Positions 10,638 to 21,462 of a DNA stretch of 64,000 nt are shown piece after piece; positions within the stretch are counted from its first letter, which is position 1; each line of letters begins with the position of its first letter. The stretch comes from Marine Group I thaumarchaeote (lineage in GTDB: Archaea; Thermoproteota; Nitrososphaeria; Nitrososphaerales; Nitrosopumilaceae). A program made the position numbers and the translations under genes. Under the pieces are notes generated by a model. The model had not been told where the DNA came from. It searched no databases and was given only the letters and a program-made list of their open reading frames with translations. Location of the stretch: NCBI GenBank assembly GCA_013390905.1, contig JACATG010000004.1:1-64000 (forward strand). Direction: 5' to 3'.

Positions 10638-11045
10638 ATGGATTGTATTTTTTGTAAAATTATTTTGGGTGATATTCCAGCAAAAATTCTTAAAGAAACT
10701 TCTAACAGTGTATCATTTTTAGATGCATTTCCACTTGCAAAGGGACATGTGCTTGTAATCCCAAAAAATCATCATCAAAAAATTCAGGATATGAGTCATG
10801 AAGAAAATACTGATTTGTTCTCTCTTGTTCATTTGATGATTTCTAAAGTAGATGCTTTAACTGGCGCAACTTTAGTTGCAGTACATAATGGAAAAGAAGC
10901 TGGACAAGAAGTTCCTCATGTTCATGTACATCTAGTTCCACGAAGTGCAAATGATTCTGCAGGTACAATTCATAGCATGTTTGACTCTACATTGAAACTA
11001 TCTGAATCTGAAATTGAAGAACTTTACAAAAAGTTAAAAATCTAA
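10638..11045 (+). CDS. HIT-family nucleotide hydrolase
   Basis: A 135-residue histidine-triad protein of the Hint/HinT-like branch that hydrolyses nucleotide phosphoramidates or related adenylated compounds. The catalytic triad motif HVHVHLVP occurs at residues 94-101, and the N-terminal CIFCKI (Cys3, Cys6) is the zinc-binding pair of many prokaryotic HIT proteins. The length is normal. It is convergent with the J-domain/ferredoxin gene, with 2 bp between the stop codons. Confidence 0.93.
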   Translation: MDCIFCKIILGDIPAKILKETSNSVSFLDAFPLAKGHVLVIPKNHHQKIQDMSHEENTDLFSLVHLMISKVDALTGATLVAVHNGKEAGQEVPHVHVHLVPRSANDSAGTIHSMFDSTLKLSESEIEELYKKLKI

Positions 11046-11047
11046 TC

Positions 11048-11728
11048 TCAATAAGGATACAATCTCTCGCGCGTATCCCTATTCTCTACGCTAATTGCCT
11101 TTGTCGGACAAGTTTCAGCGGCATTCATTATTTTATTCATACCCGCACCTTTTTGATTGATTACTGATGATTTAGGATTAAATCTGGTTTGTTTGTTTAT
11201 TTCAAAAACTCCTGGTGCTATAGTTTCACAACTACAACAACCGATACACAAACTTTTGTCCACATCGACGAAAAGGTTTGGTTGTTTTTTAGATTCTCTT
11301 GCTTTATCATATTCTCCATTTTTACCATCTGGTCGAATACGTGCATTGTATTCTTTCCAGAATTTACTTTCGTATTCTTTCCAAAAATCAGGGTCTCCCT
11401 CTTCAAATTCACGGGTATATTTACTCCAATCTTGTTCAGGAATTTTTTTATCTCCTGGAGCTCCCCCCTGAGGTTTTCTCTTAAAGTTTGTCTTTGGGGT
11501 TGATTTACTTTCAGTAAATTCTTGATGTATTGAATTATTATTTTGATTGTGATTTTTCTTAAGGTGGTTGTATGCTTCAGTAATTTTCTTAAATTGTACA
11601 TCTCCTGCTTTGTCCTTATTTCTGTCAGGATGTAATTCTAGTGCCATCTTTCGATAAGCTGTTTTGATCTCAATTTGAGATGAGTCTTGTTTTACGTTCA
11701 ATATTCTGAATGCCTGATATGTGTCCAT
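11048..11728 (-). CDS. J-domain/ferredoxin fusion protein
   Basis: The 226-residue protein joins an N-terminal J domain (residues 1-60, with HPD at 33-35) to a C-terminal bacterial-type ferredoxin domain (about 150-226). The ferredoxin ligands are Cys161, Cys164, Cys167 and Cys207 (CIGCCSC ... CP), enough for one [4Fe-4S] cluster, with an extra Cys165. A middle charged region contains two WKEY repeats. J domains stimulate DnaK/HSP70, so this may couple redox state or Fe-S delivery to the chaperone. Similar DnaJ-ferredoxin proteins are known from green-plant chloroplasts and other Thaumarchaeota. No dnaK is in this window. Confidence 0.92.
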   Translation of the reverse strand: MDTYQAFRILNVKQDSSQIEIKTAYRKMALELHPDRNKDKAGDVQFKKITEAYNHLKKNHNQNNNSIHQEFTESKSTPKTNFKRKPQGGAPGDKKIPEQDWSKYTREFEEGDPDFWKEYESKFWKEYNARIRPDGKNGEYDKARESKKQPNLFVDVDKSLCIGCCSCETIAPGVFEINKQTRFNPKSSVINQKGAGMNKIMNAAETCPTKAISVENRDTRERLYPY

Positions 11729-11767: not shown

Positions 11768-12130
11768 TTATTCTAACAAAATTTCATTATCTGCTTTCCA
11801 TGCAGGTTCTACTATGCATAAAAATCTCAAATTAATCGAGCCTGTATTTTCAATAAACTGCTTGGAATTTGGAGGAACATATACAGAATCATCTTTTTCG
11901 AGTTGGTATACGTCTTCGTTGATCTTTAGCATTCCACTTCCTTCTAAAATATAGTAGATCTCAGATGAACTCATTTTGTGAAGTTTAGATTTTTTTCTTG
12001 GTTCTAGGGTAAATTGTGCTATACTGTAATTAATTCCATTTAGTGTGTTGCGTGGGTGAAAATATTGTTTAATTTTAGTTCCTTCATCTCCCTGAATAGA
12101 TTTGATTTCAGAATTTTTTCTTAATGACAT
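11768..12130 (-). CDS. cupin-domain protein
   Basis: A single cupin of 120 residues. Motif 1 is approximated by KLHKMSSSEIYYILEGSG and motif 2 by VPPNSKQFIENTG. The first histidine pair is reduced to one clear His, so metal binding may be weakened. It resembles mannose-6-phosphate-isomerase-like cupins that act on small polar ligands, but no substrate can be named. The next cupin gene (12136-12591) lies 5 bp upstream on the same strand, indicating one transcript. Confidence 0.75.
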   Translation of the reverse strand: MSLRKNSEIKSIQGDEGTKIKQYFHPRNTLNGINYSIAQFTLEPRKKSKLHKMSSSEIYYILEGSGMLKINEDVYQLEKDDSVYVPPNSKQFIENTGSINLRFLCIVEPAWKADNEILLE

Positions 12131-12135
12131 ATTGT

Positions 12136-12591
12136 CTAAATGATTTCTGAAACTTTTGTTTTGAAATCTGATTCATACCATATTGTTTTGTATGTTGCAT
12201 TTTTTCTAGGCAGGATGTTTATTGCAATATGGGAGAATATTTTTTTCTTGTCAATTGAACCATGAGTGTGAAGTATCTTGGTTGGAATATGCACTATGTC
12301 TCCTTCATTAAGAATAATTTTTTCTGTTCTTTTAATCTTAAAATTAGTTTTAGTTGAACCATATCTTCGAAAAATCTCAAGACATCCTTTACCTTTTGTT
12401 ACAATTAACACCTGATTTCCATTATGTGAATGAATCTTTGTTCTAGACCCTTTTTCAAAATGAACATGATAGATATCTTGCTCCTCTGACTTTATTTTCT
12501 CTGACAGAACTTTCATCCATGTTTTATTTGTAAACCAATTTGGATTTACATTTCTTTTATCTCCTGCTCCAAAAATGTTTGATTTTTTCAT
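12136..12591 (-). CDS. cupin-domain protein
   Basis: A 151-residue cupin with a better conserved metal site: KIHSHNGNQVLIVTKGKG (HxH ... Q in place of Glu) and a second motif around VHIPTKILHTHG. It is adjacent to the 120-aa cupin and to the SHOCT-like protein on the same strand, with gaps of 5 bp and 1 bp, so the three probably form an operon. The two cupins are only distantly similar. Function unknown. Confidence 0.75.
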   Translation of the reverse strand: MKKSNIFGAGDKRNVNPNWFTNKTWMKVLSEKIKSEEQDIYHVHFEKGSRTKIHSHNGNQVLIVTKGKGCLEIFRRYGSTKTNFKIKRTEKIILNEGDIVHIPTKILHTHGSIDKKKIFSHIAINILPRKNATYKTIWYESDFKTKVSEII

Positions 12592-12592
12592 A

Positions 12593-12991
12593 CTAAATTC
12601 TATCCAAAATTTTCTTTTTCTTTGCCTGGAATTCTTTCTCTGTAATTATTCCATTAGCTCTTAACTTACCAAGTTTTTTTAATATCTCCAAATCCTCATC
12701 AGTATTAGATGTAATATTTTTTGCAGCTGAGATTCCTTCATTTAATTTTTTAATTCCTCTTTTCTGTAATACTTCTCTTTCTTTTTTTGCTTGATTGCGA
12801 AGTTCTTTGCTTGTCTTACTAGCTTGTTTAGCAGTCATTACTCCAATGTCGACAGCATTATCTAGCACTCGGTCTGCTTTTTTGACCCCTTCCTGTAGTG
12901 CCCTGTCTGCTTTTTTGACCCCTTCCTGTAGTGCCTTGTCAGCTGTTTTTAGAAATTTTTCAATATAGCCACTTTTATTTGACCTTGCCAT
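12593..12991 (-). CDS. helical repeat protein with C-terminal SHOCT-like domain
   Basis: From the ATG at 12991 the protein is 132 residues, almost entirely helical and rich in Lys, Ala and Asp. The N-terminal half repeats an 11-residue unit (KADRALQEGVK) roughly three times, giving an amphipathic helix. The last 30 residues (LGKLRANGIITEKEFQAKKKKIL) match the SHOCT pattern, a short C-terminal oligomerisation domain. It could be membrane-peripheral or self-assembling. A TTG at 13000 is an alternative start. Confidence 0.7.
   Translation of the reverse strand: MARSNKSGYIEKFLKTADKALQEGVKKADRALQEGVKKADRVLDNAVDIGVMTAKQASKTSKELRNQAKKEREVLQKRGIKKLNEGISAAKNITSNTDEDLEILKKLGKLRANGIITEKEFQAKKKKILDRI
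12872..12937 (-). repeat. two 33-bp tandem repeats inside the SHOCT-like gene
   Basis: A 33-bp unit beginning gtctgcttttttgacccc at 12872 recurs at 12905 with almost no mismatch, encoding the repeated 11-residue helix segment; a degenerate third copy follows at about 12938. The near identity suggests recent slippage or duplication. Confidence 0.85.
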
Positions 12992-13071
12992 ATTTTTCAA
13001 TCATTTCAAATCTTTTATCTCTTTCTTAACAGAATTAGTTTAATAGATGGAATCTTATACTTTGTGTAGTT

Positions 13072-16835: not shown

Positions 16836-18308
<1,473 letters not shown>

Positions 18309-18322
18309 GACATGGAAAGTGT

Positions 18323-18342
18323 ACGGATGCACTAGTCTTCAC
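18323..18342 (+). other. 3' arm of the 16S rRNA processing stem
   Basis: This segment is complementary to 16757-16777 and lies 14 bases after the 16S 3' end, inside the 16S-23S spacer. The spacer contains no tRNA gene, as usual for Thaumarchaeota. Confidence 0.75.
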
Positions 18343-18420
18343 ATAAATCATCGATGCAATGCATCACGAAAGTGTTGTATGAAGGATGTAGCAGACCCTG
18401 CCAGGGGTTTGCAATGATCG

Positions 18421-18432
18421 TCGTGCATAGTC
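18421..18432 (+). other. 5' arm of the 23S rRNA processing stem
   Basis: tcgtgcatagtc here is perfectly complementary to gactatgcacga at 21466-21477, which encloses the 23S gene. It is the expected endonuclease-cleaved stem for pre-23S. Confidence 0.85.
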
Positions 18433-18435
18433 GTG

Positions 18436-21462
<3,027 letters not shown>

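Follow-up and report, generated by a model that had tools for sequence, protein, structure and literature searches.

The J-domain/ferredoxin fusion protein encoded in the window, the whole stretch of 64,000 nucleotides that was analysed, is the published group I.1a thaumarchaeal DnaJ-Fer. The protein itself is already known; what is new here is evidence on the origin of its ferredoxin half. Judging from profile scores, the C-terminal tail and trees, this half appears to be tied to most of its relatives in the same archaeal order and not to the cyanobacterial domain, which undercuts the published transfer from green plants. The best explanation, to which we give a probability of roughly 0.7, is that the protein is an I.1a J-protein with a [4Fe-4S] domain, that its fusion is native to archaea, and that the chloroplast fusion is independent.

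The initial annotation had read this gene as a J-domain/ferredoxin fusion with an HPD motif and a full set of cluster cysteines. Its coordinates and residue numbers were right, its strand (minus) having gone unstated, and both motifs are seen in the translated ORF (Table 1). The Pfam match of the J domain (PF00226) and a Fer4_13 match (PF13370, residues 156-214, E 3.4e-10) both exceed the curated cut-offs. A gap of about 92-94 amino acids separates the end of the J match (residue 61) from the start of the ferredoxin matches (residues 154-156), and the protein ends 12 residues past the ferredoxin domain; it has an interdomain region, no transit peptide and no long C-terminal region. That the ORF arose by chance is ruled out by the Pfam domains and by near-full-length relatives in its own family, f1, at about 40-80% identity. 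A single-sequence AlphaFold2 model of the window protein (pLDDT 38.6, pTM 0.17) was set aside.

Table 1. The DnaJ-Fer gene, its parts and its neighbours, in positions of the window
Feature	Position	Strand	Details
HIT-domain protein	10638..11045	plus	PF01230; convergent, stops 2 bases from the DnaJ-Fer stop
DnaJ-Fer CDS	11048..11728	minus	ATG start, 226 aa
Ferredoxin domain and C-terminal tail (ERLYPY)	11051..11278	minus	residues 151-226, Pfam PF13370/PF13459
Fourth cluster ligand Cys207 (CP motif)	11108..11110	minus	seen in the sequence; 1.00 conserved in f1
Cluster motif CIGCCSC	11228..11248	minus	residues 161-167; ligands 161, 164, 167
Extra Cys165	11234-11236	minus	inside the CIGCCSC motif
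Conserved linker segment	11348..11452	minus	residues 93-127 of family f1
J domain	11546..11710	minus	residues 7-61, PF00226 E 5.2e-17, HPD at 33-35
Cupin A	11768..12130	minus	PF07883; upstream, with 39 bases between it and the DnaJ-Fer start
Cupin B	12136..12591	minus	PF00190/PF07883
SHOCT-domain protein	12593..13000	minus	PF09851

Families f1 and f8, as delimited here, match groups I.1a and I.1b of PMC3564930. In the available part of that paper, where Cys165 goes unmentioned, the group I.1a DnaJ-Fer has the same J domain, a conserved interdomain region, a CxxCxxC ferredoxin, no terminal extensions and a genome with dnaK; we see no difference of substance from the window protein, which is a member. 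The same part gives 54-92 amino acids for the interdomain region of thaumarchaeal DnaJ-Fer, and CXXCXXC for all but the two I.1b species, which have CXXFXXC. The f8 proteins share the J domain, the ferredoxin and the tail of the window protein, but their ligand 2 is Phe or Tyr, they lack Cys165, their linker is divergent, the genes that neighbour DnaJ-Fer in f1 were not found beside them, and their J domain lies elsewhere in the tree.

In a set of 86 distinct f1 sequences that includes the window protein, H33 and P34 are conserved at 1.00 and D35 at 0.99; C161, C164, C167 and C207 all stand at 1.00 and C165 at 0.97. The HPD motif is found in the same ORF as the ferredoxin domain in 85/86 f1 and 30/32 f8 cases and in one f6 row, and in 0 of 16 other rows. 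Two f8 ORFs of 115 and 110 aa (L133 and L147) have no HPD in frame, possibly through a contig edge, a frameshift or true loss of the J domain. When 300 genomes of the class were searched with the window protein, nine f1 genomes were without a strong match; the ferredoxin profile found nothing in eight of these and a weak match in one, and it matched in 38 of 43 f8 genomes. Three 0.8-Mb genomes of a single f1 genus (G166, G185 and G302, genus g35) yielded no DnaJ-Fer, a possible case of loss with genome reduction.

The ferredoxin profile was searched in 398 genomes of the phylum, in 52 chosen f1 and f8 genomes and in 80 other genomes of the class. Close relatives of the domain appeared in six other families of the same order (f6, f9, f10, f14, f16 and f17): 14 of the 80 genomes had such ORFs, 15 in all, scoring 85.2-108.6 bits; outside the order, matches in the 398-genome search reached at most 51.4 bits. 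This first profile contained some of the matched sequences, and a second was built from f1 and f8 DnaJ-Fer domains only. With it, the 11 J-less rows of f9, f10, f14 and f16 scored 53.4-73.4 bits (f14 68.2-73.4, f9 65.5, f10 53.4-63.4, f16 62.8) and the f6 J-Fer scored 60.5. By comparison, none of 31 other archaeal and bacterial ferredoxin rows exceeded 45.1, and the 81 cyanobacterial domains ranged from 26.2 to 37.8. Three kinds of relative, f16b (47.3), f17 (42.7) and f10b (three rows, 31.5-34.8), do not stand out from other ferredoxins in this test. It also included a Streptomyces plasmid ferredoxin (L319), which is absent from all trees. A profile of the cyanobacterial domains placed f1 at 24.5-40.9 bits, above the 31 other ferredoxins (maximum 35.0), and f8 at a median of 14.5; f8, f14 and f6 came out lower, and D. 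africanus ferredoxin I, at 60.3, higher. An approximate plant-like stretch, which comes from no sequence record and is to be taken as a lead only, scored 83.1 with the cyanobacterial profile versus 32.3 with the DnaJ-Fer profile. Among the viral contigs, no relative was confirmed with queries from the protein's own family, nor any match to the plant-like probe, and the cyanobacterial probe had no match among the plasmids.

A C-terminal tail of the form hydrophobic-aromatic-Pro ends 85/86 f1 domains (the exception has Trp-Pro), 32/32 f8 domains and 14/14 of those from f6, f9, f10, f14, f16, f16b and f17; it was seen in 0/3 f10b, 0/81 cyanobacterial and 0/31 other ferredoxins. The J-less tail ferredoxins (f9, f10, f14, f16 and f17) have the tail of the window protein and, apart from f16b and f17, score with the profile above all other ferredoxins; they differ in carrying hydrophobic helices or a VapB-like domain in place of the J domain, and a ligand 2 other than Cys in the rows examined. 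Ferredoxin domains behind N-terminal hydrophobic helices are found in L053, L154-L157, L055 and L054, and the helices of f9, f14, f16 and some f10 proteins, judged by their sequence, are probably membrane-spanning anchors. Close to L053 are a ChrB_C-domain protein and a citrate synthase. A VapB-like domain (PF02697, E 1.3e-8) is N-terminal to the ferredoxin in f16b (L056, 2864-3325); f17 and f10b, and the loci L165, L166, L167 and L175, have a domain that resembles it. To find an Fe-S domain joined to such an antitoxin-like domain is unusual. The f6 relative is itself a J-Fer protein, linkerless and 156 aa long, from a 4.4-kb contig of a single draft genome. A Pfam search found amoA in 0 of the 14 genomes with related ferredoxins, four of them less than 90% complete, versus 3/3 control genomes from f1, f8 and f2, which places these six families outside the ammonia oxidisers.

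The ferredoxin trees contain no plant rows from sequence records; the cyanobacterial domain represents the published source of the plant domain. From the 59-row trees, 27 of 86 aligned ferredoxins were left out, near-duplicates being thinned and long branches removed. With 64 columns, a branch supported at 70 sets the rows of the order apart. A clade of J-Fer proteins with cyanobacteria has a p-AU of 0.313 (0.177 with f6 added); placing the f6 J-Fer in one clade with f1 and f8 gives p 0.505. After the 64-column result, the set was widened to 76 columns by admitting any column that at least 45% of rows fill, so that the tail is included. A quick tree on these columns supports the order group at 81, with p 0.038 for J-Fer plus cyanobacteria and 0.032 with f6. 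A careful 59-row tree places 32 order rows on one side of a branch (96/86) and gives that clade a p-AU of 0.0485, or 0.0015 with f6. The 17 DnaJ-Fers of f1 and f8 form one group there (100/96), split from the J-less forms in 98% of 200 bootstrap trees. As the J-less forms lie outside this group, they do not have the appearance of recent escapees. The tree evidence weakened when seven long-branched rows (Fd_L317, L318, L302, L299, L304, L300 and Fdo_L176) were restored: in this 66-row tree on 76 columns, p rises to 0.0551 (0.0313 with f6), the order-wide group takes in a Rhodococcus plasmid ferredoxin with a branch of 1.62, and this group is unbroken in only 18% of bootstraps, although the likelihood improves by 2.75 when the group is imposed. 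Rejection of a J-Fer and cyanobacterial clade is borderline and depends on the tail columns and on the choice of rows. The cyanobacterial domains group with the row of a Desulfovibrio ferredoxin I.

For the J domains, f1 forms one group (98/94) and f8 another (80/87) elsewhere in the tree, in agreement with the three J-domain origins reported in the available text of PMC3564930; holding the two together gives p 0.124, and a single origin is not rejected. The separate placements suggest that fusion took place more than once, as opposed to a single fusion followed by replacements. In an EF-2 tree, f1 and f8 are each one clade (100 for both), and the backbone of the order is unresolved.

How did the fusion arise? 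In the scheme that we favour, the ferredoxin domain would derive from an order-wide archaeal family whose members have J domains, a VapB-like domain or apparent membrane anchors as partners, and the J-Fer fusion would most likely be an archaeal event, separate from the one that gave the chloroplast proteins. We also think it reasonably probable that DnaJ-Fer was never acquired from plants, that the tail-ferredoxin family swaps its N-terminal partners repeatedly, taking up a J domain up to three times, and that plants made their fusion on their own. In the published reading, the thaumarchaeal ferredoxin came from green plants. The initial annotation had mentioned a transfer between these lineages, and PMC3564930 indeed discusses relatives from green plants and algae and from Thaumarchaeota as a transfer. 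In its tree with plants, according to the available text, the ferredoxin domains of Thaumarchaeota and plants stand together (77%, PP 0.99), and the fusion was then known only in Thaumarchaeota and Viridiplantae; PMC7554672, in the part available, states that with more genomes it could confirm an acquisition from the Viridiplantae ancestor. Among titles and abstract openings, we found no literature disputing the transfer. Our own data also lend it something, since a clade of J-Fer proteins and cyanobacteria is left unrejected on 64 columns and narrowly so in the 66-row tree, and the cyanobacterial profile sets f1 above the other ferredoxins. Still, we judge such a transfer unlikely and, on the present evidence, unsupported. 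The J-less ferredoxins and the one linkerless J-Fer occur in six families in which no amoA was detected, outside the f1 and f8 group, and profile and tail link DnaJ-Fer to most of these archaeal forms and not to cyanobacteria. Moreover, since the J halves differ from those of plants, a transfer would require that the J domain was replaced twice. A tree with independent origins had been named as what would refute a shared history; the evidence points that way, although from trees without plant record sequences.

Spread in another direction is conceivable: the ammonia-oxidising archaea would have gained DnaJ-Fer elsewhere, and their relatives that do not oxidise ammonia would have taken the ferredoxin from them and dropped the J domain. 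The unresolved EF-2 backbone, which leaves the order of descent not independently fixed, and the unsure place of the f6 J-Fer, which may share a clade with f1 and f8, give this some room. However, the separation of f1 and f8 from the J-less forms in nearly all bootstrap trees, and the diversity of these forms in partner domain and motif, make it very improbable. If, as we prefer, the ferredoxin half is native to the archaea, the calibration that uses the published plant-to-Thaumarchaeota transfer to date ammonia-oxidising archaea (0.75-1.49 Ga, in the available part of the source) loses its basis, as does the broader case for young archaea that builds on it.

The chloroplast proteins CDJ3, CDJ4 and CDJ5 and the DJC76 clade likewise combine a J domain with a bacterial-type single-cluster ferredoxin domain, and their ferredoxin half is reported, in the text available, as cyanobacterial. 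Unlike the window protein, they have a transit peptide, a short linker or none, and a long C-terminal region (PMC3564930, available part). The likeness of the chloroplast and archaeal J-Fer proteins is probably convergent.

The initial annotation had singled out Cys165, next to the cluster. The residue is real, but it is no peculiarity of the window protein: Cys occurs there in 83/86 f1 domains, and Ser or Gln in the other three. The f1 motif is CIGCCSC in 77 of the 86 distinct domains, CIACCSC in 6, and CIGCQSC, CIGCSSC and CIACQSC in one each, so that ligand 2 is Cys in 86/86. It is Phe in 31 and Tyr in one of 32 distinct f8 domains, and is replaced by Ser, Val, Asn, Ala or Thr in 17/17 rows of f6, f9, f10, f10b, f14, f16, f16b and f17. 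This census covers distinct ferredoxin domains of at least 20 bits, with loci L090 and L092 left out and J-less matches such as L321-L323, L325 and L331 outside it. Within the order-wide family, as far as these sequences go, the full four-Cys set occurs only in f1 and nearly always with Cys165, and Cys165 only where the full site exists. In one f10 tail-type ferredoxin (L057, 2358-2846; the same gene as L160), Tyr replaces the first Cys ligand, and this domain may be degenerate.

A model for the relatives outside f1 is offered by the actinobacterial CXX?XXC(X)nCP ferredoxins of PMC6237146, which have a single cluster and a variable ligand 2. They are stand-alone electron donors to P450, whereas in f1 DnaJ-Fer this variable position is still Cys. 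According to the available text, all those examined with a non-Cys second position hold a [3Fe-4S] cluster, the Phe form being perhaps not included. By this rule, f1 is predicted to hold a [4Fe-4S] cluster and the remaining families a [3Fe-4S] one. With four-Cys and three-Cys cluster sites on one and the same domain, the family amounts to a natural experiment.

Other ferredoxins that were compared have G, E, K, Q, A, S or V in the place of Cys165, and from this variety the residue is probably exposed. The likeliest role would be that of a surface thiol beside the cluster, as an alternate ligand or a thiol switch, the specific role being a guess. It is possible, though we somewhat doubt it, that Cys165 has no role and is a neutral substitution fixed in the f1 ancestor. 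The variability of the position in other ferredoxins and its replacement in three f1 domains would fit such a hitchhiker; its conservation does not, given that f1 identity to the window protein falls to about 41% (L082) and that the nearby position 169 is conserved at only 0.48.

As for function, the initial annotation had proposed a link of Fe-S status to HSP70 activity, which looks reasonable. The HPD loop of the J domain would recruit the cell's DnaK, and the C-terminal domain would hold one cluster, presumably [4Fe-4S], on its four cysteines. Most likely the J domain would bring DnaK to the cluster domain, or let DnaK respond to it, such that the cluster state or an Fe-S client would steer a presumably stimulated DnaK. 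In Chlamydomonas, CDJ3 and CDJ4, which interact with HSP70B, carry a redox-active [4Fe-4S] cluster (PMC6006212, PMC9407819, available parts). The check for dnaK that had been suggested turned out positive: the source genome (1.23 Mb, 98.5% complete, amoA present) has one HSP70/DnaK match of 713 bits (G000:C9:19817-21550), so that DnaJ-Fer has a possible DnaK partner, and a 360-aa J-domain ORF follows just downstream of dnaK (C9:21819).

The linker may also matter. In f1, its residues 93-127 have a mean majority-residue frequency of 0.78, versus 0.69 for the J domain; the conserved residues are W101, T105, W116, Y119, F123, W124 and Y127, of which the aromatic W101, Y119, F123, W124 and Y127 are invariant. 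Neither of the two f8 proteins compared shows this segment. It is possibly a client or partner site; the authors of PMC3564930, in the part available, consider the variable interdomain region to be probably structural.

The neighbourhood of the gene is largely shared within f1. A convergent HIT gene is found in 69/75 f1 loci, a same-strand upstream cupin A in 55/75, cupin B in 57/75 and the SHOCT gene in 40/75, all counts being held down by the short f1 flanks of about 1.5-2 kb. By tblastn at E 1e-6, these neighbours were found in 0/32 f8 loci. The two cupin genes and DnaJ-Fer, whose order is conserved in f1, likely make up a putative operon. ARAGORN found no tRNA genes in the window. The 16S and 23S rRNA genes lie at 16836-21450, about 5 kb from DnaJ-Fer; the first DnaJ-Fer described likewise came from a marine fosmid with a 16S rRNA gene (PMC3564930, available part).
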